Source: Oscillospiraceae bacterium
GTDB lineage: Bacteria > Bacillota > Clostridia > Oscillospirales > Ruminococcaceae
Length of the DNA stretch: 33,044 nt
Assembly (NCBI GenBank): GCA_021200775.1
Contig: JAJQGB010000016.1
Location: 22,540-55,583, forward strand
Direction of reading: 5' to 3'
Shown here one piece after another: positions 1-31,580 of the stretch. Under the pieces are notes generated by a model. That model ran no database searches and was not told the DNA's origin. It saw only the letters and a list, made by a program, of their open reading frames with translations. Every line of letters starts with the position of its first letter. Position 1 is the first letter of the stretch. The translations under genes were made by a program, and so were the position numbers.

Positions 1-36
1 GTCGAAAGCGTCAACCCGAATTACGAGGCAAAGTGA
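1..36 (+). CDS. C-terminal tail of an array peptide (cut by window edge)
   Basis: The frame is open from base 1 and ends at TGA 34-36; the last residues read NPNYEAK. The stop overlaps the ATG of the next array gene (TGATG), as expected for translationally coupled members of a tandem array. NPN also occurs near the C-terminus of several full members, so this is probably one more copy. Its N-terminus lies outside the window, so membership is inferred from position and the tail only. Confidence 0.55.
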   Translation, partial: VESVNPNYEAK

Positions 37-167
37 TGTATAACAACCACGAACTTAAAATAGTTCTTTTCGAGCCCACCAGCGTGTTCACTGACCTTGA
101 AGTCAGCGGAGGACCCGAGGGCGGCATAGTTGTTAATTCGACAAACCCGGGCACGGTAGATAGGTAG
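36..167 (+). CDS. Array peptide 1 (MYxxHE family)
   Basis: A 43-residue peptide starting MYNNHELKIVLFEP. It has the shared N-terminal pattern M-Y-x-x-H-E-L-x-I-V-x-F-E and then V-F at 17-18. The C-terminal half is Gly/Pro-rich (GGPEGG) and ends NPGTVDR without the SIKPNRSDS tail. Its start overlaps the previous stop. It has no Cys, no membrane segment and no double-Gly leader site. The likely role is a ribosomally made precursor whose N-terminus is read as a leader; function is inferred only. Confidence 0.8.
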   Translation: MYNNHELKIVLFEPTSVFTDLEVSGGPEGGIVVNSTNPGTVDR

Positions 168-174
168 GGATAGT

Positions 175-291
175 ATGTACAATCCATATGAAATGAACAT
201 CATTCTCTACAAAGAAAATTTCTTCATCACCGCCAGCGAAAATTTGGATGATGGCGATGTTGAAGGACCGGAGTTGGAGATTCCAATTTGA
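175..291 (+). CDS. Array peptide 2 (MYxxHE family)
   Basis: A 38-residue peptide starting MYNPYEMNIILYKEN. Tyr replaces His at position 5 and Tyr replaces Phe at 12. The tail is acidic (DDGDVEGPELE) and ends in IPI. AGGGA at 166-170 lies a few bases upstream and overlaps the preceding stop, so translation is probably coupled. It lacks the SIKPNRSDS tail and any Cys. Family membership rests on the leader pattern and array position. Confidence 0.8.
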   Translation: MYNPYEMNIILYKENFFITASENLDDGDVEGPELEIPI

Positions 292-312
292 CTTAATAGA
301 TGAGGCGTTAGC

Positions 313-420
313 ATGTACACAGAGCACGAAATGAATATGATATTGTATTCCAGCAATGATTTCGTTTTGGCTAGTGGTGTAGATGAGGGCGGAACTAGAA
401 CTGAGGACGAGGATTTTTGA
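313..420 (+). CDS. Array peptide 3 (MYxxHE family)
   Basis: A 35-residue peptide starting MYTEHEMNMILYSSND, then FVLASG, then an acidic tail (EDEDF). TGAGG seven bases upstream can act as ribosome site. The variable half has Gly-Gly and Thr/Arg but no Cys or Trp. It is among the shortest members. The start is chosen by the conserved Met-Tyr. Confidence 0.8.
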   Translation: MYTEHEMNMILYSSNDFVLASGVDEGGTRTEDEDF

Positions 421-443
421 CTCAGATGATGCGTGAGGCAGAT

Positions 444-560
444 ATGTACACGGAGTACGAATTGCAAATTGTTCAGTTCTCTGAAGCTGATAATCTTGTA
501 ACAACCTTGTCAGGCGACGAGGACGGCTCCGGTGGCACACCCGGAAAAAGCGATTGGTAA
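444..560 (+). CDS. Array peptide 4 (MYxxYE family)
   Basis: A 38-residue peptide starting MYTEYELQIVQFSEAD, then a Gly/Ser/Asp-rich stretch (SGDEDGSGGTPG), ending KSDW. The SD near the C-terminus matches the SDS/SDI/SDW endings of other members. An in-frame ATG at 426 would add six residues, but the conserved Met-Tyr at 444 is the better start, with GTGAGG just upstream. Confidence 0.8.
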   Translation: MYTEYELQIVQFSEADNLVTTLSGDEDGSGGTPGKSDW

Positions 561-577
561 AGGGTTGAGTCTTGGTT

Positions 578-700
578 ATGTACGAAAAGCAAGAAATGGA
601 AATAGTAGTATTCGACGGTGAGTACGTTTTTGCTGACAAGACTGAAGGGAGCTCTTCCTGGGAGCCGTGGAGTATCAAGCCTAACCGGTCGGATTCATAG
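578..700 (+). CDS. Array peptide 5 (full SIKPNRSDS tail)
   Basis: A 40-residue peptide starting MYEKQEMEIVVFDGEYVFAD. The middle contains two Trp (SSSWEPW) and the end is the complete tail SIKPNRSDS. It is the closest relative of array peptide 16, which has the same K-S/T-E-G-S and W-E-x-W-S-I-K-P pattern. Conserved leader and tail around a short variable centre suggest that both ends are recognised by something. Confidence 0.85.
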   Translation: MYEKQEMEIVVFDGEYVFADKTEGSSSWEPWSIKPNRSDS

Positions 701-710
701 AGGCATAATG

Positions 711-812
711 ATGTACGAAAGATATGAACTGACAATCATCGATTATGATGAGAATAGGTATGTCGTGTGCAGTTACTCCGACGGCGGCGACGAAGGTTGG
801 AGCGCTGACTGA
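711..812 (+). CDS. Array peptide 6
   Basis: A 33-residue peptide, the shortest of the array, starting MYERYELTIIDYDEN and ending DGGDEGWSAD. It has one Cys (residue 20) and one Trp. An ATG directly upstream (708) is in frame, giving Met-Met; the family start Met-Tyr at 711 is preferred. It lacks the SIKPNRSDS tail and may be a shortened member. Confidence 0.75.
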   Translation: MYERYELTIIDYDENRYVVCSYSDGGDEGWSAD

Positions 813-816
813 GACC

Positions 817-945
817 ATGTACACAGAGCATGATATAAAAATATTGGAATTTAACGAGCGAGATGTGTTTGCGGATATCGGCGACGAAGCTTCCGAAGAA
901 GGAAGCGGCTCCTATAGTATCAAACCCAATCGTTCGGACATATAA
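817..945 (+). CDS. Array peptide 7 (SIKPNRSDI tail)
   Basis: A 42-residue peptide starting MYTEHDIKILEFNERDVFAD, with a Glu/Gly/Ser middle and the tail YSIKPNRSDI. It begins 4 bases after the previous stop, so the ribosome site lies inside the previous gene and translation is presumably coupled. It is a canonical family member with leader, hydrophilic centre and conserved tail. Confidence 0.85.
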   Translation: MYTEHDIKILEFNERDVFADIGDEASEEGSGSYSIKPNRSDI

Positions 946-958
946 AGGCGTGAGGGAA

Positions 959-1087
959 ATGTACGAGAAGCATGAAATCGATTTTGTTCACTTCGCCGAG
1001 ACTGACATAATCGTTCAGTGTGACATGTCAAATGCCGGTGACGGAAGTAGCGCTTGGAGCATTAAGCCGAACCGGTCGGATTCGTAG
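959..1087 (+). CDS. Array peptide 8 (SIKPNRSDS tail)
   Basis: A 42-residue peptide starting MYEKHEIDFVHFAETDIIVQ, then a Cys at residue 21, a Gly/Ser/Asp stretch, one Trp (SSAW) and the tail SIKPNRSDS. GTGAGGG precedes the ATG. The leader has Phe at position 9 in place of the usual Ile. Confidence 0.85.
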   Translation: MYEKHEIDFVHFAETDIIVQCDMSNAGDGSSAWSIKPNRSDS

Positions 1088-1096
1088 GTGGTTTCA

Positions 1097-1219
1097 GTGT
1101 ACGAGAAGCACAGCTTGAACATTGTTTGCTTCAGCGGCGATGAAGTGTTTGCGTTTATAAATCCCACAGCGTCTGAGTCCGATACACATTCTGTCGACGA
1201 TAAACCCGTGGGTATGTAA
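1097..1219 (+). CDS. Array peptide 9 (GTG start)
   Basis: A 40-residue peptide that needs a GTG start: V/M-Y-E-K-H-S-L-N-I-V-C-F, then EVFAF. The frame is kept from GTG 1097 to TAA 1217-1219 and the leader pattern is clear, apart from Ser for Glu at position 6 and Cys at 11. The tail ends KPVGM. A weak start and a degenerate leader suggest lower expression or early decay of this copy. Confidence 0.7.
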   Translation: MYEKHSLNIVCFSGDEVFAFINPTASESDTHSVDDKPVGM

Positions 1220-1231
1220 CAGGTGATAAGG

Positions 1232-1357
1232 ATGTACGAAAGTCATGAAATGCAATCGGTTCTTTTCGAGAACGCTTGCGTGTTTGCGGTGAATGACGGG
1301 TCGGATGGACCCGGCGAATCGTATTTCAGACTTAACCCCAACAGGTCGGATTCGTAG
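1232..1357 (+). CDS. Array peptide 10 (NPNRSDS tail)
   Basis: A 41-residue peptide starting MYESHEMQSVLFENACVFAV, then a Gly/Asp/Pro-rich centre and the tail YFRLNPNRSDS, a variant of SIKPNRSDS. It has one Cys at residue 16. The ribosome site is AGGTGATAAGG immediately upstream. DNA around the tail codons (GGTCGGATTCGTAG) is identical to that of array peptide 8, which indicates duplication. Confidence 0.85.
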   Translation: MYESHEMQSVLFENACVFAVNDGSDGPGESYFRLNPNRSDS

Positions 1358-1367
1358 GAGATGCGAG

Positions 1368-1505
1368 ATGTACATTAGTCATGAGATGAGGATTTCCTCA
1401 TTCACTTATGATGAGCAATTTGTCTGCGCCATTACTCCTGGCAGTATCGTAGATGGCGACGGAGACGATAACTACAGCATTAAGCCGAATGTTTCGGATA
1501 TATAA
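1368..1505 (+). CDS. Array peptide 11 (SIKPNVSDI tail)
   Basis: A 45-residue peptide, joint longest in the array, starting MYISHEMRISSFTYDEQFVC. It is followed by AITPGS, a Gly/Asp stretch and the tail YSIKPNVSDI. The TPGS segment also occurs in array peptide 14. It has one Cys at residue 20. AGGAGATGCGAG upstream is a good ribosome site. Confidence 0.85.
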   Translation: MYISHEMRISSFTYDEQFVCAITPGSIVDGDGDDNYSIKPNVSDI

Positions 1506-1517
1506 TGGGGAATTGAT

Positions 1518-1637
1518 ATGTATAAGAGCCACGAGATAGAACTTATTGGGTTCGAGGAGAGCAATGTGTGGGCAGGTGTTGAAGGTCCGACGTTGTCTGT
1601 TGGTGAAGGGGAGGAAGAGTGCTGGGAAGGCAGTTAG
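1518..1637 (+). CDS. Array peptide 12
   Basis: A 39-residue peptide starting MYKSHEIELIGFEESNVWAG, so Trp replaces Phe at position 18. The tail is Gly/Glu-rich with Cys35-Trp36 and ends EGS. It lacks the SIKPNRSDS tail. It is the last gene before an intrinsic terminator inside the array (1665-1688). Confidence 0.8.
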   Translation: MYKSHEIELIGFEESNVWAGVEGPTLSVGEGEEECWEGS

Positions 1638-1664
1638 TCACGCCACTCATGATTTCACCGGATT

Positions 1665-1691
1665 GGGAGAAGAAGGTTCTCCCTTTTTGTT
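1665..1691 (+). terminator. Terminator or attenuator inside the peptide array
   Basis: A perfect 7-bp stem (GGGAGAA 1665-1671 with TTCTCCC 1677-1683), a 5-base loop and a run of five T (1684-1688). It lies between array peptides 12 and 13 in a 75-base gap, whereas most gaps here are 4-23 bases. It should reduce transcription of the last four peptides unless read-through is regulated. Confidence 0.75.
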
Positions 1692-1712
1692 TAACATATT
1701 GAGGAGAAAACC

Positions 1713-1832
1713 ATGTACGAAGAGCATGAAATAGATGTCGTTCAGTACGAAGAGAACGCCCTTGTGACCGCCAGCGGTGATGGGACTATAGATTATAGTG
1801 GTAGTGATGAGGATGTTACTTTCGATTGGTAA
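1713..1832 (+). CDS. Array peptide 13
   Basis: A 39-residue peptide starting MYEEHEIDVVQYEENALVTA, then SGDGT, an acidic Ser/Asp stretch and the ending FDW. It is preceded by GAGGAGAAAACC, one of the strongest ribosome sites in the array, placed right after the internal terminator. This suggests re-initiated, well translated expression when transcription reads through. Confidence 0.8.
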   Translation: MYEEHEIDVVQYEENALVTASGDGTIDYSGSDEDVTFDW

Positions 1833-1842
1833 GGTGAAAGCC

Positions 1843-1980
1843 ATGTACGAGAAATATGAGATAGTCGTTATTTCGTTCGACGAGTGCGACGTTATGGCTG
1901 GGTTGACTCCGGGAAGCATGGACGAAAGCGGCGGCGGAGGCAGTCAACATTCCGCCGGCGGCAAATTAAGTGATATTTGA
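1843..1980 (+). CDS. Array peptide 14
   Basis: A 45-residue peptide starting MYEKYEIVVISFDECDVMAG, then LTPGS, a run of Gly (SGGGGS) and the ending KLSDI. It shares TPGS with array peptide 11 and the SDI ending with peptides 7 and 11. AAGGTGAAAG is the ribosome site. Confidence 0.85.
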   Translation: MYEKYEIVVISFDECDVMAGLTPGSMDESGGGGSQHSAGGKLSDI

Positions 1981-1991
1981 GGTGGTTTATT

Positions 1992-2123
1992 ATGTATATA
2001 GAGTATAACATGCATATTGTCACGTTTGATGAAGAAGATTCATTTGTTTGTACGCTCATCAATAGTGGAGACGGCGAATCTGTTGACTCTGTTCCTGGCA
2101 CTGGTCCTTCTGCCGATATGTAA
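1992..2123 (+). CDS. Array peptide 15
   Basis: A 43-residue peptide starting MYIEYNMHIVTFDEEDSFVC. Asn replaces Glu at position 6 and Cys is at 20. The centre carries SGDGES, and the end is GPSADM. AGGTGG upstream is the likely ribosome site. A 107-base gap follows. Confidence 0.8.
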   Translation: MYIEYNMHIVTFDEEDSFVCTLINSGDGESVDSVPGTGPSADM

Positions 2124-2230
2124 AACATCTGATTCTTGAATGAGTAGGCAATATCCCCTGTAGCCGGTTTAGGCTGGTTGCAGCGGATTTGTACTTTACG
2201 GGCAATGCACAAAGATAAGGACGATAGATT

Positions 2231-2356
2231 ATGTACGAGAAATACGAGATGAAAATGATTGATTTCAGCGAGAATGACTCTTTCGTTTTTGCTGATAAGT
2301 CGGAAGGCTCCGGATGGGAGCAATGGAGCATCAAGCCGGATAGAAGCGACAGTTAA
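2231..2356 (+). CDS. Array peptide 16 (last array member)
   Basis: A 41-residue peptide starting MYEKYEMKMIDFSENDSFVF, then ADKSEGSGWEQW and the tail SIKPDRSDS. It closely resembles array peptide 5 in centre and tail. It is separated from peptide 15 by 107 bases in which I see no gene, and is followed directly by a terminator, so it may be a separately added unit. Confidence 0.85.
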   Translation: MYEKYEMKMIDFSENDSFVFADKSEGSGWEQWSIKPDRSDS

Positions 2357-2369
2357 TGTCAATGTCGGG

Positions 2370-2394
2370 GAGAGCAGAGATGCTCTCTTTTTTT
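2370..2394 (+). terminator. Terminator closing the peptide array
   Basis: Stem GAGAGCA (2370-2376) with TGCTCTC (2381-2387), a GAGA loop and seven T (2388-2394), 13 bases after the stop of the last array peptide. Confidence 0.9.
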
Positions 2395-2616
2395 GTGCCA
2401 AAAATCCTCCCCCACATAAGAAAATCGTCCCAAGCCGTCTTCCTGCCCGGGCATTTCTACCGATTCGGGAAATCAGCCGAGTAGCGGCTCCTGCCACAAT
2501 TCCCACAGTCAATCCATCGCCCCACAAATCCCCACCACAACAAAGCCCCGCATAACGAACCGACCCGAGTACAAAATCCAGACCCTCGCACCCTGCCCCA
2601 ACCAAGTTCAAAATCC
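2395..2616. other. Non-coding gap between peptide array and polysaccharide locus
   Basis: This C-rich stretch of about 220 bases has no start site, ribosome site or recognisable protein on either strand. A proline-rich open frame on the plus strand and its opposite-strand counterpart look like composition artefacts. It contains an imperfect repeat of AAAATCCA followed by a C-rich run, near 2573 and 2610. Together with the terminator and leader that follow, the gene-free interval runs to 2806. Confidence 0.5.
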
Positions 2617-24303: not shown

Positions 24304-25647
24304 ATGAATCAGTTTTTTATTAAATGCTACAGAAAACTGGATTATTTGCATCTAATGGATTGGATGCCGGATAAGATGTACTTATCATTAAAATTCAGAG
24401 TGATGATGGGGAAGAAGCTTAATCTGAAGAATCCACAAACCTTCAATGAAAAATTGCAATGGCTGAAGTTATACGACCGCAAGCCCATATACACTACAAT
24501 GGTCGACAAATACGAAGCCAAAAAGTATGTTGCAAATATCATTGGAGAAGAGTACATAATTCCGACGCTTGGGGTATGGGATAGTCCCGATGAAATAGAT
24601 TTTGATTTGTTACCAAATCAATTTGTACTGAAGTGTAATCATAACTCTGGTCGTGGCATGTGTATTTGTACTGACAAAAGCAAATTGGATATCGAAGCGG
24701 TTAAGAGAGGGCTTCAAGAAGGATTAAATGAAGATTACTATATTACCAACAGGGAATGGCCGTACAAAGATGTACCCAGAAAAATAATTGCTGAGAAATA
24801 TATGGTCGATGAATCAGGATATGAACTAAAGGATTATAAGTTATTCTGTTTCGATGGATTTGCTAAAGCAATGTATATTGCTATGGATCGCCAGTCAACA
24901 ACCGAAGAAATGAAATGGAATTTTTATGACATGCAATTTCAAAAATTACCTTTTTGGAATGCACATCCTAATTCAGACTCGGAGATTAAACGACCTGATT
25001 CGTTTGAACGTATGAAAAAATTAGCAGAAAAACTTTCACAAGGCATTCCAAATGTAAGAGTGGATTTTTATGACGTCGATGGTCAAATATATTTCGGAGA
25101 AATGACATTTTTTCATAATTCCGGTTTAACGCAGTTCCATCCGGAAGAATGGGATGAAAAATTCGGCGAATGGATTAAGCTTCCTGATAATGCGGGGGGG
25201 TACTTGATAGCAAGTAATGGTTATATTTTATGGATTCACGAAGAATCGGCGGATGAGCAAAAAGACAATAGTTTGAAGGATTATAAGTTTATGTGTTTTG
25301 GTGGCAGAGTTTATTGTTCTTTTGTTTGTTCTGATCGGTTCTCGGAAGACGGTTTAAAAGTTACCTTCTATGATCGTGAGTGGAGAAAGATGCCGTTTAC
25401 TCGCCATTACCCATCCTCTGCGGAAAATATTGAAATGCCAAAACAATACTATGCTATGATAGATTTCGCAGAGAAACTGTCGAAGGATATACCTTTTGTG
25501 CGTGTTGATTTTTACGAGGTTGATGGGCATCTTTATTTTGGAGAATTAACATTTTATCCGGGCAATGGAATGGAAGAATTCAAGCCGGAAGATTGGGATT
25601 ATAAATTAGGAGATTGGATTAAATTGCCTGATTGCGTGGGGGGGTAG
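24304..25647 (+). CDS. TupA-type ATP-grasp protein with repeated C-modules, stopped at a G7 tract
   Basis: A 447-residue product as the frame now stands. Residues 1-300 resemble the TupA/teichuronopeptide ATP-grasp family (NPQTFNEKLQWLKLYDRKP, TMVDKYEAKKYV, FVLKCNHNSGRG, IIAEKYM, LKDYKLFCFDG, VRVDFYDVDGQIYFGEMTFF), enzymes that attach amino acids or peptides to uronic-acid polymers. After GEWIKLPDNAGG a second copy of only the C-terminal half follows (LKDYKFMCFGG to WIKLPDCVGG). A G7 tract (25638-25644) then leads into TAG. One more G would read on into a third half-module. A first G7 tract (25194-25200) joins modules 1 and 2 in frame. Ribosome site AAAGGA upstream of ATG 24304. Confidence 0.82.
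   Translation: MNQFFIKCYRKLDYLHLMDWMPDKMYLSLKFRVMMGKKLNLKNPQTFNEKLQWLKLYDRKPIYTTMVDKYEAKKYVANIIGEEYIIPTLGVWDSPDEIDFDLLPNQFVLKCNHNSGRGMCICTDKSKLDIEAVKRGLQEGLNEDYYITNREWPYKDVPRKIIAEKYMVDESGYELKDYKLFCFDGFAKAMYIAMDRQSTTEEMKWNFYDMQFQKLPFWNAHPNSDSEIKRPDSFERMKKLAEKLSQGIPNVRVDFYDVDGQIYFGEMTFFHNSGLTQFHPEEWDEKFGEWIKLPDNAGGYLIASNGYILWIHEESADEQKDNSLKDYKFMCFGGRVYCSFVCSDRFSEDGLKVTFYDREWRKMPFTRHYPSSAENIEMPKQYYAMIDFAEKLSKDIPFVRVDFYEVDGHLYFGELTFYPGNGMEEFKPEDWDYKLGDWIKLPDCVGG
25194..25200 (+). repeat. G7 tract joining ATP-grasp modules 1 and 2 (in frame)
   Basis: Seven G in GCG-GGG-GGG-TAC, encoding A-G-G-Y. The reading frame continues into module 2. Confidence 0.95.
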
Positions 25648-26081
25648 TGGTTAATTTTTCGGAGAATGCTTGCATTTGGATTCATAAAAGCACTATTCCG
25701 AAAAAATCTAGCGAGTTAAAAGACTATAAACTTTTCTGTTTTAACGGCGAGCCGGAACTTACGCTTGTATGTAGCGATAGATTTAGCGAGCAGGGATTAC
25801 ATGAGGATTTTTTTGATAATAATTGGACTCATCAAAATATAGCAAGACCAAATACACCTAATTCCGTTATTCCAATAGAAAAACCGTATTGTTTCGATGA
25901 AATGCTGAGTCTGTCAAGAAAACTGTCGAAGGATATCCCGTTTGCTCGCATTGATTTTTATGAAATTCAGAAACGCCCTTATTTTGGGGAAATTACATTT
26001 TATCCGGCATCTGGACTTAATGGTTTTGTACCAGATAGTATAGATGTAGAATTAGGGAGAAAAATATCGTTGTCGTTATGA
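25632..26081 (+). CDS. Third module of the ATP-grasp gene, out of frame
   Basis: This frame continues the ATP-grasp gene after the G7 tract: VVVNFSENACIWIHKS parallels the module 1-2 linker, then ELKDYKLFCFNGEPELTLVC, KLSKDIPFARIDFYEI and YFGEITFYPASGL repeat the earlier modules. With eight G the whole gene would run 24304-26081, about 592 residues. An ATG-like start at 25632 (MRGG) spans the tract, but I see no ribosome site and the meaning is surely continuation. The part after the tract is intact to its own stop, which suggests reversible switching rather than decay. Confidence 0.8.
   Translation: MRGGVVVNFSENACIWIHKSTIPKKSSELKDYKLFCFNGEPELTLVCSDRFSEQGLHEDFFDNNWTHQNIARPNTPNSVIPIEKPYCFDEMLSLSRKLSKDIPFARIDFYEIQKRPYFGEITFYPASGLNGFVPDSIDVELGRKISLSL
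25638..25644 (+). repeat. G7 tract at the frame break of the ATP-grasp gene
   Basis: Seven G in GTG-GGG-GGG-TAG. The stop follows directly. Eight or five G would continue into module 3. Confidence 0.95.
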
Positions 26082-26099
26082 GAAAGGAGGATGCGACGG

Positions 26100-27314
26100 A
26101 TGACGGAAATTGAAAAATCGTTTCTTGCAATTTTAAGGGATGCGTTGCATCCGGAAGATAAAATAACAGATCTTAAGGCGGACTGGGCGGCTGTGTTTGA
26201 CATAGCAAAAAAGCAAAATCTCTTTCCGCTCGTATATGATGCTGCAACTGCATATCCTTCTTTCACATCATTCGATGATTCCCATCTGGAATACTTTGTA
26301 GCCGCAGCAGCATCGATGACTGCTCAAATGCAAAAAACGGATGCGTTCCTTTCACTATATAAATCTTTCCTGTCTGCCGGTTTATCACCGATTACCATGA
26401 AAGGAATTATCTGTCGTGATCTTTACGGAGAAAGAGCCGATTTCCGCCCATCCGGTGACGAGGATATTCTGATAGAGAAGAGAGACTATGCTAAGGCGGT
26501 GGCTGTTCTGGAGTCATGCGGTTATCGGAAAGATGCCAATCCAGATAAGAATATGACAGTTGTCCATGAAGTTACGTTTTATAACGATGAATTGACGGTG
26601 GAATTGCATTTGAATCCGTTTGGGACATCTTCATCAATTCGGCAAAAAATGAACGACTGGTTTAGAAACGTGTTCCAAAGTGAAGAGACGGTTGACATAA
26701 AAGGTGTGCCTGTGAGAACAATGACACCTACAGACCATTTTCTGTTTCTTGCTTTTCATACTTTTAAACACTTTACCACTGGCGGTTTCGGAATAAGGAT
26801 GATGCTAGACATTTTACTGTTTGTTGAAAAGTACGGAGAACGGATTGATTGGTCATATGCAGAGAAAGGCTTGATTGATATTGGCGCATCTGGGTTCATG
26901 GCTGACTTAGTTGAGATAGGTAATCATTATCTTGGCTTTAAGCTTTTACAGCGTTACCAGCCTGTGTGCCCGGAAGAGCTATTGAGTGATATGTACAGCG
27001 TAGGGATTTTTGGTAATGGCAATAAAACTCATCTCACTGCAAGAAGAATTGTTGAGGATACAGTACAGAAGGGAAAAAGTAACAAGAGCAGGTTGAGCTC
27101 ATATTTCCGACGACTGTTTCCGACGTGGAAATCATGGTGTGCATGGAGACCTTACCTTAAGGATAGACCGTGGATGGTTATCCCCGAATGGTTCAAAAGG
27201 GTAGGTCGTTACCTCCGTCATGAAACATCTATGGGTAACCTATCTGAAATTAACGAGAGTTATGAAATTGCGGAACACAGGCTGGAGCTTCTAAAAAAGT
27301 ACAACATACTGTGA
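26100..27314 (+). CDS. Nucleotidyltransferase-fold protein (NTP_transf_5-like)
   Basis: A 404-residue protein. The segment ITMKGIICRDLYGERADFRP followed by GDEDILIEKRDY has the Gly and paired acidic residues of the uncharacterised nucleotidyltransferase family PF14907, then LTVELHLNPFG and HFLFLAFHTFKHF. Such proteins occur at the ends of capsule and peptide-modification loci; the substrate is unknown. ATG 26100 is chosen because AAAGGAGG (26083-26090) lies nine bases upstream; ATG 26091 would touch that site. It is the last gene of the polysaccharide operon. Confidence 0.72.
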   Translation: MTEIEKSFLAILRDALHPEDKITDLKADWAAVFDIAKKQNLFPLVYDAATAYPSFTSFDDSHLEYFVAAAASMTAQMQKTDAFLSLYKSFLSAGLSPITMKGIICRDLYGERADFRPSGDEDILIEKRDYAKAVAVLESCGYRKDANPDKNMTVVHEVTFYNDELTVELHLNPFGTSSSIRQKMNDWFRNVFQSEETVDIKGVPVRTMTPTDHFLFLAFHTFKHFTTGGFGIRMMLDILLFVEKYGERIDWSYAEKGLIDIGASGFMADLVEIGNHYLGFKLLQRYQPVCPEELLSDMYSVGIFGNGNKTHLTARRIVEDTVQKGKSNKSRLSSYFRRLFPTWKSWCAWRPYLKDRPWMVIPEWFKRVGRYLRHETSMGNLSEINESYEIAEHRLELLKKYNIL

Positions 27315-27645: not shown

Positions 27646-27816
27646 ATGTACAGTATTCACGAATACAGTATTCACGAAATGGATTTCGTTTATTTCAGCG
27701 AGAAGAGCCTATATGTTCAGGCTGATTTAAGTGTTGTTGGATGTGATGACAGTTCTGCTTGTCCACCGTACACATGTCCTGAAACATCTTTTAATTCGCT
27801 CTTTGGAGATTGTTAA
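27646..27816 (+). CDS. Cys-containing precursor peptide of the MYxxHE family
   Basis: A 56-residue peptide directly upstream of the radical SAM gene. The leader matches the array (M-Y-S-I-H-E, E-M-D-F-V-Y-F-S-E-K) but YSIHE is duplicated by a 15-bp tandem repeat. The C-terminal part differs: four Cys (33, 39, 44, 56) in VGCDDSSACPPYTCPETSF and GDC at the end, suited to thioether or disulfide formation. Strong ribosome site CAGGAGG. It is the best candidate for the cognate substrate of the adjacent maturase. Confidence 0.85.
   Translation: MYSIHEYSIHEMDFVYFSEKSLYVQADLSVVGCDDSSACPPYTCPETSFNSLFGDC
27649..27678 (+). repeat. 15-bp tandem duplication in the leader
   Basis: TACAGTATTCACGAA occurs twice in a row (27649-27663 and 27664-27678), duplicating YSIHE in the precursor leader without changing frame. 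Confidence 0.95.
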
Positions 27817-27823
27817 AAACGGC

Positions 27824-29197
27824 ATGGAAATAATACGTGAACCGTCGGAGATAATTGCAAAAACGCTTGGCGAGCAGGCTGTCGGGCAGGACGAGGCTGT
27901 GCGCCTGGCTTCGTGGTGCGTGGCTGTCCCTGCGGGAGATGGCAATATTCTTTTGCTTAATAATTTTACTAAGGAGCTTGTTCTCGTCGAAAACGGCGAG
28001 GATGAGTTTCTTCGTTTGCCCAATCTTTCGGAGTCGGACGTGGACAAAATCCGTGGTAGCGAGCCTTTCGACTATCTTTCACGCCACTGGTTCATAGTCC
28101 CTGCTAATCTCGATGACAAAAATCTTATCGATGAAGTTCGTTCGGTGGTTTCTTGCATGAACAAGCCGGAGGGCATCATCGGGTACACTATTTTGACGAC
28201 GACCGACTGCAACGCCCGTTGCTTCTATTGCTATGAGCAGGGGCTTGAGCGTGTCAACATGAGTCGGCAAACCGCCCTCGACACGGCGGAGTTCATCAAA
28301 AAGACAGCCGGCAGGAAAATCAAGCTCCACTGGTTCGGCGGAGAGCCGCTTTTTAACTCCTCCGTCATCGATATTATCACAGATGAGCTGAAAAAATCCG
28401 GCATCGAGTATCACTCCACGATGACTTCAAATGGCTATCTCATTACCGACAGCGTCGTGAAGAGAGCCGTTGAGTCGTGGAACCTAAAGGGCGTCCAGAT
28501 AACCCTTGACGGCACGGAGGAGATTTACAACCGGCGCAAGGCGTATGCGGGTTCCAAAGGAAGCGCTTTTCAGCGGGTTCTCGGCAATATCGAGAAGCTT
28601 TTGCAGGCTGGAATCAGCGTCTCTGTGCGGATGAATCTCGACATGGACAACGCCGAAGATTTGCACAAGCTCTGCGACCTGCTTGCGGACAGATTCTCAT
28701 CTTATGAGAAGTTCGGCGTCTATGCCCACTACATTTTTGACGGCAAGACTGCAGATTCGCTTTACTACGCGCTTGACGAGACCTACATCGAGCTCGAAAA
28801 GCTGAGAAGCTATCTTCGGGAGAAGGGCTTGACTCGCCGTGGCAAGCTGGGAAACACCATCAAAGTCAGCCACTGCATGGCGGACAAGGACTCTTCCATC
28901 GTGATTTCCGAGACCGGCAAGCTCTATAAGTGCCAGCACATCACTCCTACAACTGAGAGCTTCGGCACTATCTACACCGGTGTTGAAAATCCTGATGTTA
29001 TAGATTATTGGAGAAACCGCCCCGAAGACGGCGAGATTTGCGAGAATTGTCCACTCTACGCTGACTGCATCCGCCTTTCCGCCTGCCCCGACGACTTCGC
29101 CTTCTGCCCACAGGTCATCTATGACGAGAAACTAGAGAAGCTGAAGAACGCCATGCTCTACACCTATGAAGAATATCCCGAAACCAAGCAGTCGTAA
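27824..29197 (+). CDS. Radical SAM/SPASM peptide maturase
   Basis: A 457-residue protein. The radical SAM cluster motif is Cys129-x3-Cys133-x2-Cys136 (CNARCFYCYEQG), followed by HWFGGEPLFN and TSNGYLI as in AdoMet radical enzymes. A SPASM region holds Cys351, Cys370 (LYKCQH), Cys406-x2-Cys409 (CENC), Cys415, Cys421 and Cys428, enough for auxiliary Fe-S clusters. Residues 1-120 could hold a peptide-binding domain. It probably forms thioether or carbon-carbon crosslinks on a ribosomal peptide. The earlier open frame overlaps the precursor; ATG 27824, eight bases after the precursor stop, is preferred although its ribosome site is weak. No transporter or protease is adjacent. Confidence 0.88.
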   Translation: MEIIREPSEIIAKTLGEQAVGQDEAVRLASWCVAVPAGDGNILLLNNFTKELVLVENGEDEFLRLPNLSESDVDKIRGSEPFDYLSRHWFIVPANLDDKNLIDEVRSVVSCMNKPEGIIGYTILTTTDCNARCFYCYEQGLERVNMSRQTALDTAEFIKKTAGRKIKLHWFGGEPLFNSSVIDIITDELKKSGIEYHSTMTSNGYLITDSVVKRAVESWNLKGVQITLDGTEEIYNRRKAYAGSKGSAFQRVLGNIEKLLQAGISVSVRMNLDMDNAEDLHKLCDLLADRFSSYEKFGVYAHYIFDGKTADSLYYALDETYIELEKLRSYLREKGLTRRGKLGNTIKVSHCMADKDSSIVISETGKLYKCQHITPTTESFGTIYTGVENPDVIDYWRNRPEDGEICENCPLYADCIRLSACPDDFAFCPQVIYDEKLEKLKNAMLYTYEEYPETKQS

Positions 29198-29280: not shown

Positions 29281-29306
29281 TTGACATTTGCGGGGGGTAC
29301 TATAAT
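29281..29306 (+). promoter_or_regulatory. Cassette 1 promoter with a G6 tract in the spacer
   Basis: TTGACA (29281-29286) and TATAAT (29301-29306) are perfect consensus boxes but only 14 bases apart. G6 (29292-29297) lies in the spacer. Three extra G would give the ideal 17. The present spacing should make it weak. Confidence 0.7.
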
Positions 29307-29342
29307 AGAAGTATAAAAAATATTTCTTCAGAAGGACGATTC

Positions 29343-29576
29343 ATGTTGATGGATGAAGCTGAAAAGGCGGCAAAAGCCCGCAGGCGCAAGCATATTGACC
29401 GCAAGCGTTACTACGCCAAAACCGCAAATCTTTACCCGAAGCGTGCCTGGACTGCCGATGAGAAGAAACTAGTCCTCGAACACTCCATCCCCGACAGCGA
29501 ACTGTCCGCAAAAATCCAGCGTTCCGTGAAGTCAATTCAGGAAGAACGCCGCAGGCTGAAGATGGAAAGCAAATGA
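29343..29576 (+). CDS. Small Myb/SANT-like DNA-binding protein 1
   Basis: A 77-residue very basic protein. After an Arg/Lys-rich N-terminus (KARRRKHIDRKRYYAK) it has AWTADEKKLVLEHSIPDSEL and SVKSIQEERRRLK, the pattern of a Trp-starting three-helix Myb/SANT domain with a recognition helix. It is clearly a paralogue of 31173-31415. Ribosome site GAAGGA; ATG 29349 is a less likely alternative. It lies between a G-tract promoter and an array-type peptide, so it may regulate the peptide system. Target unknown. Confidence 0.78.
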   Translation: MLMDEAEKAAKARRRKHIDRKRYYAKTANLYPKRAWTADEKKLVLEHSIPDSELSAKIQRSVKSIQEERRRLKMESK

Positions 29577-29597
29577 AATTGGAAAGGTCGAAATGAG

Positions 29598-29711
29598 ATG
29601 TACGAGAAATATGAAATGCGAACTATACAGTTTGAAGTGAACAATGTATTTGCAGACGGAGTTTGGATAGGGTCACAGGAAGTCGGCGAGGATGATGAGC
29701 GTCCTTCTTAG
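29598..29711 (+). CDS. Precursor-like peptide of cassette 1 (MYxxYE family)
   Basis: A 37-residue peptide starting MYEKYEMRTIQFEVNNVFAD, nearly identical in leader to the array members at 1-2356. The tail GVWIGSQEVGEDDERPS lacks Cys and the SIKPNRSDS end. GGAAAGG is the ribosome site, 22 bases after the DNA-binding protein gene, so the two are probably one transcript. Confidence 0.85.
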   Translation: MYEKYEMRTIQFEVNNVFADGVWIGSQEVGEDDERPS

Positions 29712-30003: not shown

Positions 30004-30077
30004 CCGCTAACTCAAAAAATAAGCGTCGGATGACAATGTTGTCCGGCGCATTGCTTTATCCGGAAGGATGTCTGATT

Positions 30078-30707
30078 ATGACCAAAAAGCAGGACAGATT
30101 AGAGATTGTAGACAAGATAGAAGCGGCGGCTGTACTGTATAAACAGAAGCTTGTCGGAAAAAGGTTTATGTACGTTTTCGACAAAAGGTACATAGAAGTG
30201 ATTTTCAAGGCGGAAAACTTCCGCCATCTTACAGGCGTAGACACGAAAGTCCCTGCAAAGCGTTTCTATAGCTATGCAGTGAGTGGAAATCTTGAAGCTT
30301 CCCAGATTGGATTCAGTTCGTCGCATCCGTATGCCTTGTGTACCCGCAAAATCAAGCATATCGGAGACATTGCGGAGATGGCGATGACCGAGTGTTTCAT
30401 GCTTGAAGACATCAAAACCGACACAATGAGCTATAAGTTCGGGACGACCGACCTCAAACTGACGCTCTGTCTGAATAAAGATTTGGATACGGACGGTAAC
30501 GAAAAAAGCGAATGTTTTGTAGTGCAATCTCTCCGTGATGAAGACTGTTTTTCGAAAAGTAGAGAGGTTCACACAGTAACACATATCTTTTCGAGACCGA
30601 ATAATGCCAAAAAGTACACCGATTTGCTCTTCATGGACAAGGATTCAACGATGGCTGACTTGCCACCGGAAGTCAGAGCATTGTTGGGTGAGAGACTTAT
30701 AGGTTAG
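30078..30707 (+). CDS. PBECR4-like (phage Barnase-EndoU-ColicinE5/RelE-like nuclease 4) protein
   Basis: A 209-residue soluble protein. FDKRYIEVIFKAENFRHLTG near 30-50 resembles the start of PBECR4 domains seen in phage and mobile-element proteins of Firmicutes; KRFYSYAV and a C-terminal FSRPNNAKKYTDLLFMDKD follow. The family is predicted, not shown, to be nuclease-related. ATG 30078 is chosen because GGAAGGA lies nine bases upstream; earlier in-frame ATGs fall in the RNA region. It follows the structured RNA and ends at a strong terminator. The family call is from memory and uncertain. Confidence 0.55.
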   Translation: MTKKQDRLEIVDKIEAAAVLYKQKLVGKRFMYVFDKRYIEVIFKAENFRHLTGVDTKVPAKRFYSYAVSGNLEASQIGFSSSHPYALCTRKIKHIGDIAEMAMTECFMLEDIKTDTMSYKFGTTDLKLTLCLNKDLDTDGNEKSECFVVQSLRDEDCFSKSREVHTVTHIFSRPNNAKKYTDLLFMDKDSTMADLPPEVRALLGERLIG

Positions 30708-30710
30708 TCC

Positions 30711-30739
30711 CCGGCACATTTTGTGCCGGTTTTTATTTA
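30711..30739 (+). terminator. Terminator after the PBECR4-like gene
   Basis: A perfect 8-bp stem CCGGCACA (30711-30718) with TGTGCCGG (30722-30729), then TTTTTATTTAT. Confidence 0.9.
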
Positions 30740-30786
30740 TCGCCCTTTTCATTTCCTCCGAGCCGATACCTTCTCGGGGTCACAAC

Positions 30787-30894
30787 GAAGAGCGCCTTGC
30801 GAAGGCTCAGGAAGAGTACGCCTCAAACTTCGTAAACGGACAAATCCTCTACGTCGACGGGGGAATCCTCGGCTACATCGGCAAACAACCGTAA
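30787..30894 (+). pseudogene. Remnant of a short-chain dehydrogenase C-terminus
   Basis: Thirty-five codons end in ASNFVNGQILYVDGGILGYI and GKQP, the typical C-terminus of SDR enzymes of the gluconate 5-dehydrogenase type. The catalytic core and any start are missing and the upstream part (EERLAKAQEEY) may mark a deletion joint. It is a decayed leftover at the edge of the inserted cassettes. Confidence 0.7.
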
Positions 30895-31044: not shown

Positions 31045-31071
31045 TTGACAAAAAATGCGGGGGGGTAAAAT
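31045..31071 (+). promoter_or_regulatory. Cassette 2 promoter with a G7 tract in the spacer
   Basis: TTGACA (31045-31050) and TAAAAT (31066-31071) with a 15-base spacer that ends in G7 (31059-31065). Two more G would give 17 bases. As in cassette 1, the optimum is reached with nine G. Confidence 0.7.
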
Positions 31072-31172
31072 AGAGTCATCGGATTTGATTCTATTGTTGA
31101 GAATTTTGCGAGACAATATCCTAATTTCTCAGATATTGAGGAACAGACTAATCAAAGACAAAAGGTGAGACA

Positions 31173-31415
31173 GTGGCTAAACGAGGAAGACCAGCAACCG
31201 GCATATCCCAGGAAAAAAAGCGTGCCTGCCGGAAGCGTTACTACGCAAAAACTTCCTATCTCTATTCGAGACACCCGTGGACGGAGGAAGAATGTAGGCT
31301 CGTTTTAGAGCACTCGATACCCGACAGTGAGCTGTCCGAAAAACTCGGCAGGTCCCTTAAAGGCATCCAGGAAAAACGTCGCCGCCTGAAGAAATCAAAT
31401 CAAAACACAGACTAA
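31173..31415 (+). CDS. Small Myb/SANT-like DNA-binding protein 2
   Basis: An 80-residue basic protein. It begins at GTG 31173 with AAGGTGAG as ribosome site. An AT-hook-like KRGRPATG is at 3-10, then KRYYAKTSYLYSRHPWTEEE and LEHSIPDSELSEKLGRSLKG. It is a paralogue of 29343-29576, sharing KRYYAKT and LEHSIPDSELS exactly. It sits in the same cassette order: G-tract promoter, this gene, array-type peptide. The long leader from promoter to start (about 100 bases) has no gene I can support. Confidence 0.8.
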   Translation: MAKRGRPATGISQEKKRACRKRYYAKTSYLYSRHPWTEEECRLVLEHSIPDSELSEKLGRSLKGIQEKRRRLKKSNQNTD

Positions 31416-31463
31416 AATGTGGAAGGGCGAGAGCCTTGCCTAGAAAAATGGAGGTAATTTGAT

Positions 31464-31580
31464 ATGGTTGAAAAGCATGAGATGAATGTTATAGAATTTG
31501 ATAAAACCGATGTTTTTGCTGATGAAGATCTTGAAAGTGGACAGGAAATTGTTGGAGCTGTCCGCTACAGTGACAAGTAA
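31464..31580 (+). CDS. Precursor-like peptide of cassette 2 (MVEKHE variant)
   Basis: A 38-residue peptide starting MVEKHEMNVIEFDKTDVFAD. Val replaces the otherwise constant Tyr2. The tail is acidic and ends VRYSDK, recalling the SD endings of the array. Ribosome site GGAGG. It follows the second DNA-binding protein by 48 bases. Confidence 0.83.
   Translation: MVEKHEMNVIEFDKTDVFADEDLESGQEIVGAVRYSDK

Follow-up and report, generated by a model that had tools for sequence, protein, structure and literature searches.

Prochlorosins are made by a single promiscuous enzyme from many precursors with a common leader; their chemistry is that of lanthipeptides, and the leader is of the Nif11 type. According to Popov et al. 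2026 (PMC13381572), linear polyphosphorylated peptides (LPP), represented by the lpp cluster of Paenibacillus alginolyticus, come from clusters that hold one to three precursors of 35 to 200 amino acids, with the leader YxxPxVLxHQxIxFETxxS and a variable C terminus, and these clusters often lie within capsule loci. That paper also describes an HprK-like kinase that adds several phosphates to Ser3, together with a discrete ribosomally synthesized and post-translationally modified peptide (RiPP) recognition element (RRE), a nucleoside triphosphate (NTP) transferase, and a signal peptidase I (SpI)-like protease that cuts after T-1. Phosphorylated lasso peptides of the paeninodin type, as described in PMC7533575 and PMC13381572, use an HprK-like kinase, a PqqD-like B1 protein, and an NTP transferase. 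Here, we describe a locus of a gut or rumen bacterium of the Oscillospiraceae (genome G000; 2.06 Mb, 17 contigs) in which about 20 tiny neighboring genes encode peptides with a common tag-like front half and differing acidic, Ser-rich back halves. The analyzed stretch, called the window, comprises 33,044 nucleotides (C9:22540-55583; contig JAJQGB010000016.1 of assembly GCA_021200775.1). We read this array as an expanded set of RiPP-like precursors that serves an LPP-like peptide-phosphorylating route, an interpretation that we regard as an even call. Searches of the open-licence PubMed Central literature listed no title or start of an abstract that describes such arrays.

Between positions 36 and 2356 on the plus strand, the window contains 16 complete tandem precursor-like genes of 33 to 45 codons, each encoding a leader of about 20 residues followed by an acidic core rich in Ser, Gly, Asp, and Glu. 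The members are located as follows (pN/pS, ratio of nonsynonymous to synonymous differences per site; G001, genome of a related species).

1..36, plus strand: C-terminal end (VESVNPNYEAK-stop) of a 17th member cut by the window edge, with its start at L057 14421 and partly masked in L057
36-167, 175-291, 313-420, 444-560, 578-700, 711-812, 817-945, 959-1087, plus strand: complete frames 1 to 8
1097-1219 (GTG start), 1232-1357, 1368-1505, 1518-1637, 1713-1832, 1843-1980, 1992-2123, 2231-2356, plus strand: complete frames 9 to 16
2231-2356, plus strand: last array member, MYEKYEMKMIDFSENDSFVFADKSEGSGWEQWSIKPDRSDS, with 93% identity to its G001 orthologue and a pN/pS of 0.10

The stop of the cut member overlaps the ATG of the gene at 36. 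An earlier reading of the window's letters (the original prediction) had proposed a tandem array of small genes with one leader, mostly 4 to 23 bases apart, each starting with Met-Tyr and sharing the motif M-Y-x-x-[HY]-E-..., and all of this was borne out: 13 of the 15 intergenic gaps fall in that range (the remaining two are 75 and 107 bases), and Met-Tyr begins all 16 complete members. Its count was right for the window, but the array is longer, with three further complete members and the remainder of the cut one upstream (L057 14031-14576) and thus 20 array members in the host genome (C9:22030-24895). The leader pattern of the array peptides is Y-x-x-[H/Y]-E-[M/L/I]-x-[I/V]-[I/V]-x-F ... 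V-[F/V]-[A/T/C]. We analyzed a set of 47 members (19 from G000, 15 from G001, and 13 from the related species G020), excluding two damaged-looking G001 matches (C1:39562 and L063 9166) and the partly masked cut G000 member. Members are 33 to 46 amino acids long, have no internal stops, and in 44 cases are preceded by a ribosome-binding-like sequence (permissive pattern set). Their cores consist of 16% Gly, 16% Ser, 15% Asp, and 10% Glu, with a mean charge of -4, and only one contains Cys. A hidden Markov model (HMM) built from 28 members of the two other species recovered every complete window member except the one at 1368 (15 of 16) with a cut-off of 15 bits, and the same model found nothing at that level in 200 dinucleotide shuffles of window positions 1 to 2400.

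Among 60 relatives, including the host genome itself, family members were found at an E value of 0.001 or better in nine, all within this genus, and tandem arrays were found in three (G000, G001, and G020). The arrays of G001 and G020 are partly orthologous to that of G000, with members gained and lost between species; the 13 members of G020 are split between L065 (nine) and the end of the short contig L066 (four). Reciprocal best matches of at least 50% identity, a floor that biases toward conservation, gave 18 orthologue pairs (9 G000-G001, 5 G000-G020, and 4 G001-G020). Pooled, these had a pN of 0.184 and a pS of 0.559, or a pN/pS of 0.33, which is approximate because pS is high and uncorrected. 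The differences at codon positions 1, 2, and 3 numbered 148, 116, and 290. This ratio indicates that the array genes are maintained under purifying selection. The original prediction had staked its case in advance on homologues with a conserved frame elsewhere and on a ratio between copies away from 1; such homologues exist in G001 and G020, and the ratio between orthologues is 0.33. It had also described the second halves as strongly variable, which holds between paralogues and not between orthologues, where pN/pS was 0.31 for residues 2 to 21 and 0.35 for the remainder. The cores are thus diverse among neighbors and preserved across species.

In the order, 3 of 394 genomes had a match to profile A3, and one of these (G326; E value of 6e-4) belongs to another genus of the family. 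In the class, 43 of 391 genomes, the host genome among them, had a match to A7, a broader leader profile. Among the A7 matches listed there were up to nine copies per genome, and outside the genus the listed places were far apart or on separate contigs; as A7 recovered only 2 of the 20 G000 array members, the absence of arrays elsewhere is weak evidence. For the 63 collected members, the NCBIfam and Pfam scans gave no match better than about E 0.03, and a PHROGs scan of four window array-type peptides, the Cys-containing peptide, and the Myb-like protein described below gave a best E value of 0.04.

The original prediction did not recognize the family. It can now be placed close to the leaders used in LPP-like and SPASM-type peptide systems: the front half is of a kind (KYExPEMEIIxFxxxDVITTS-like) that is widespread in Clostridia and is found beside HprK-like kinases and radical-SAM/SPASM enzymes. 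Named genomes were scanned for relatives of the SPASM enzyme encoded in the window; of the 139 found, 80 loci were retained, several cut by contig ends. At least one leader match was present in 48 of these 80 loci, counted anywhere within the locus and in some cases kilobases from the enzyme. As 20 of the 27 seeds of the HMM came from 19 of the loci later scanned, we also counted the 61 loci that gave no seed, and 29 of these had a match. None of 18,943 reversed open reading frames (ORFs) from the 80 loci and the genus loci matched the profile. The L104 peptide fell below the HMM threshold, though A3, which contains that peptide, scores it highly. HprK-like proteins occurred in 25 of the 80 loci and PqqD-like proteins in 14.

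Leader-family peptides were also seen as single genes. In four species (L084 to L087), a single-copy member (MDKEYEK[H/Q]EMEIINYEENEWIVTS...) occupies one conserved place, with feoB-like and GAPDH-like genes nearby (by eye). At L065, L068, L069, L073, L074, and L077, a single member has a large secreted protein on one side and a Thr-rich anchored protein on the other (gene types assigned by eye).

The enzymes for a phosphorylating route are encoded in the array genomes. A triad of HprK-like kinase, PqqD-like protein, and peptidase-like protein occurs in all three; the kinase is encoded in the genome but not beside the array, and a kinase fold is predicted. The PqqD-like model PF05402 scored above its cut-off in L206, L210, and L060. 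A kinase of the close type was found in 3 of 3 array genomes and in none of the 28 others (uncorrected for kinship). In G011, a leader peptide, an HprK-like kinase, PqqD, a signal-peptidase-like protease, and an NTP transferase stand in one cluster, which is nearly the LPP gene set. A candidate for the last of these enzymes lies in the window, and its family occurs in 14 of 31 genus genomes.

26091-27314, plus strand: NTP_transf_5 protein (LppN-like; PF14907, E value of 4e-41), at the end of a polysaccharide locus

The leader ends in a hydrophobic residue at -3 and a small residue at -1 in 47 of 47 members (500 shuffles had a mean of 29.9 and a maximum of 42). The small residue at the leader end, the polysaccharide locus, the NTP transferase, and the triad in the genome fit the LPP route. 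In such a route, a discrete PqqD-like recognition protein would bind the array leader, and the peptides would be phosphorylated, then cleaved, and presumably exported. The product would be a family of linear phosphopeptides, possibly decorated further by the NTP transferase and possibly linked to polysaccharide or surface biology.

Several observations weigh against this interpretation. The cleavage motif was selected after inspecting the peptides, and only 28 of 47 members have Ser within core positions 1 to 5 (9 have it at +3). LPP leaders have [Y/W]xxP, whereas the array has Y-x-x-[H/Y/Q], with His or Tyr in 43 of 44 anchored peptides, Gln in 1, and Pro in none. In G000, about 90 kb of the same contig separate the array from the nearest triad, and the array flanks that were read (L057, the window, L063, L066, and L065 starting at about 7.8 kb) showed no gene for a modifying enzyme. 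Proteins of L207 and L209 matched signal peptidase I models at E values of 3e-6 and 1.4e-5, below the curated cut-off, and the peptidase-like homologues of L206 and L210 were recognized by eye only, with no signal-peptidase match in Pfam. The association of HprK-like kinases with the peptides (8 of 9 peptide-positive genomes, versus 6 of the 22 remaining genomes of the genus; P = 0.004) is uncorrected for kinship and could reflect it. The proposal of a substrate library for a peptide-modifying system is partly upheld, through the RiPP-type leader family, the one-cluster gene set of G011, and purifying selection; the modification itself is something that we infer.

Right after the array, a large polysaccharide locus extends over positions 2807 to 26081, with an epimerase, sugar-nucleotide enzymes, glycosyltransferases, two heparinase-like proteins, and a TupA-like ATP-grasp protein (24304-25647) whose end overlaps the next ORF (25632-26081). 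The Pfam analysis covered the ORFs that begin at 2807, 10814, and 24304, as well as the one at 26091 just beyond the locus; the other gene types were assigned by eye.

The array also shares a promoter-like element and a neighboring gene with solo peptides. The pattern TTGACN{3,11}CGGGGGG matched the genome six times. In five cases, a small Myb/SANT-like gene starts shortly after the match, and either an array-type peptide or the array itself comes next; the sixth match precedes a gene that is sigma-factor-like by eye. The reversed control pattern had no match in the genome. The G-run varies from five to eight G among the promoter copies. Two such cassettes, spanning 29281-29711 and 31045-31580, lie in the window.

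29281-29306, plus strand: promoter-like TTGACA-TTTGCGGGGGGTAC-TATAAT with a G-run spacer
29343-29576, plus strand: small Myb/SANT-like helix-turn-helix protein of the cassette (weak Myb match)
29598-29711, plus strand: solo array-type peptide (E value of 2.5e-12 to a profile that includes this member)
31045-31071, plus strand: promoter-like element with a seven-G run
31173-31415, plus strand: second Myb/SANT-like gene
31464-31580, plus strand: second solo array-type peptide (E value of 2.9e-14 to a profile that includes this member)

G000 has ten Myb-like genes, so about half of them lie outside this arrangement. The predicted structure of the Myb-like protein is helical (mean predicted local distance difference test score [pLDDT] of 83), its sequence matches to Myb are weak (best E value of 0.025), and Foldseek gave no match to the predicted structure at an E value of 0.001 or better. 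The approximately 20 putative substrates are probably coexpressed from the G-run promoter behind the small Myb-like gene.

Around the cassettes we noted several other features. Directly upstream of the Myb-like gene of the G000 array are four consecutive site-specific-recombinase-like genes (by eye; L057 8394-13474), and G029 has three such genes after one of its solo peptides (L067 10252-13854). In the promoters of large secreted proteins at L065 9758, L069 1647, and L074 9581, TTGACA is surrounded by an inverted repeat (CCCCCAT...ATGGGGG type), and G-runs are placed as in the peptide cassettes. A short ORF at window 30721-30894 ends like the C terminus of a short-chain dehydrogenase, and a near-identical end lies upstream of the G020 enzyme locus L075, as if a cassette had moved with a piece of its flank. 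After about 300 bases with no obvious gene, structured-looking by eye, there is a PBECR4 nuclease-like protein at 30030-30707 (PF18813, E value of 6e-23); Rfam gave no match in the window at the gathering threshold.

The window contains a peptide-modifying enzyme of its own, and one alternative is that the array is its substrate library, modified in trans.

27646-27816, plus strand: peptide whose leader is related (11.2 bits to the leader HMM) and whose core contains Cys (CDDSSACPPYTCPETSFNSLFGDC), located 7 bases before the SPASM enzyme
27824-29197, plus strand: radical SAM/SPASM peptide maturase (best NCBIfam match TIGR04463, below its cut-off)

The enzyme lies about 25 kb downstream of the array, and the peptides directly before it and before its relatives at two G020 SPASM loci belong to the array's leader family; the second G000 copy of the enzyme likewise has a small peptide with a Y-V-E-P-E leader upstream (L060 10349). 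These enzyme-adjacent peptides carry Cys, whereas the array cores do so in a single case of 47, and the window-type enzyme occurs in only 2 of 31 genus genomes (G000 and G020). It was not found at an E value of 1e-40 in G001, which has an array. A census of PF04055 in 13 genomes gave 12 matches in G001, not identified individually. The scarcity of Cys and the G001 genome make the SPASM enzyme an improbable modifier of the array. Neither weighs against its acting on the peptide at 27646-27816, which is likely the substrate of the enzyme that follows, and the two are likely a separate thioether-type RiPP pair within the window.

A rather unlikely alternative, though one to be taken seriously, is that the peptides are small cytoplasmic proteins that need no modification to act, for instance in regulating or chaperoning coexpressed surface proteins, with the leader as a protein-binding segment. 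Several single members are indeed flanked by genes for large secreted proteins and for Thr-rich anchored proteins, in some cases with a Myb-like gene nearby, and the constraint between species is similar for both peptide halves; this alternative accounts poorly for the leader type adjoining SPASM and HprK-like enzymes in many genomes and for the leader peptide within the one-cluster LPP-type gene set of G011. The Myb-like gene and shared promoter that precede the array and the solo members could instead suggest immunity or antitoxin-like partners, or signaling peptides sensed by the Myb-like protein. That is very unlikely, since a single Myb-like gene precedes about 20 different peptides, and by eye there was no recurring toxin-like partner and no apparent signal peptide. 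Decay of a tandem duplication with no present function would suit the strong divergence of the copies, their gain and loss between species, and the two damaged-looking G001 matches (C1:39562-39660, with an internal TGA, and L063 9166-9264, with no ATG, GTG, or TTG before the leader). The pN/pS of 0.33, the intact frames of all 47 members, and the ribosome-binding-like sequences before 44 of them make it extremely improbable.

The LPP-like phosphorylating route can be carried further, into a proposal that we consider a long shot. The array would be a genus-specific combinatorial phosphopeptide library, in which about 20 linear peptides are made together, recruited via a retuned YxxH leader, and phosphorylated by an array-associated HprK-like kinase. 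The G-run between -35 and -10 of the promoters could vary in length and switch them on and off, and the products would act at the cell surface, decorating or tuning it alongside the colocated polysaccharide and large secreted proteins. If the phosphorylating route is correct, the LPP-type RiPP family, described only in 2026 and with one to three precursors per cluster, would gain a natural library of about 20 precursors and an altered recognition motif, and the array would be ready-made material for testing how far a recognition protein and kinase tolerate diverse cores. One leader type would then serve a kinase route and a radical-SAM route within the same genome. Genes of 33 to 46 codons are easily overlooked in annotation.

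Compared with known systems, the array is like the prochlorosins in having many leader-sharing precursors, and the prochlorosins are set apart by their lanthipeptide chemistry and Nif11-type leader. With SPASM radical-SAM peptide systems it has a common leader type, and part of the SPASM loci encode HprK-like and PqqD-like proteins; ScmC/ScmD-like proteins (NCBIfam matches below cut-off) recall SynChlorMet-type sets. The enzyme-adjacent peptides of this genus have Cys in their cores, unlike the array peptides. HprK-like kinase, PqqD-like, and NTP transferase partners also resemble what is reported for the paeninodin type, from which the array genomes differ in the B2-type leader peptidase: PF13471 had no match over its cut-off in 31 genomes (weaker matches in 11). 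The same lack of a lasso-type B2 peptidase above cut-off is a likeness to LPP. Other likenesses are the conserved N terminus and variable C terminus (the shortest peptides, from 33 amino acids, are just under the published range), the HprK-like kinase, discrete PqqD-like RRE, and NTP transferase in the genomes, and the tie to polysaccharide loci. The candidate signal-peptidase-like proteases, matched below cut-off or by eye, may be a further likeness. Unlike LPP clusters, the array has about 20 precursors, its putative enzymes are not adjacent to them (another leader-family member, in G011, does cluster with such enzymes), and its cassette has a Myb-like gene and a G-run promoter. The leader also differs otherwise from the LPP consensus, and YxxP itself occurs in single leader-family members of G000 (L078 2693 and L079 3057) and G001 (L204 8034). 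Since two defining features fail, the Pro of YxxP and the one to three clustered precursors, we do not file the array as a member of LPP; by analogy, the system that it most likely works like is LPP.

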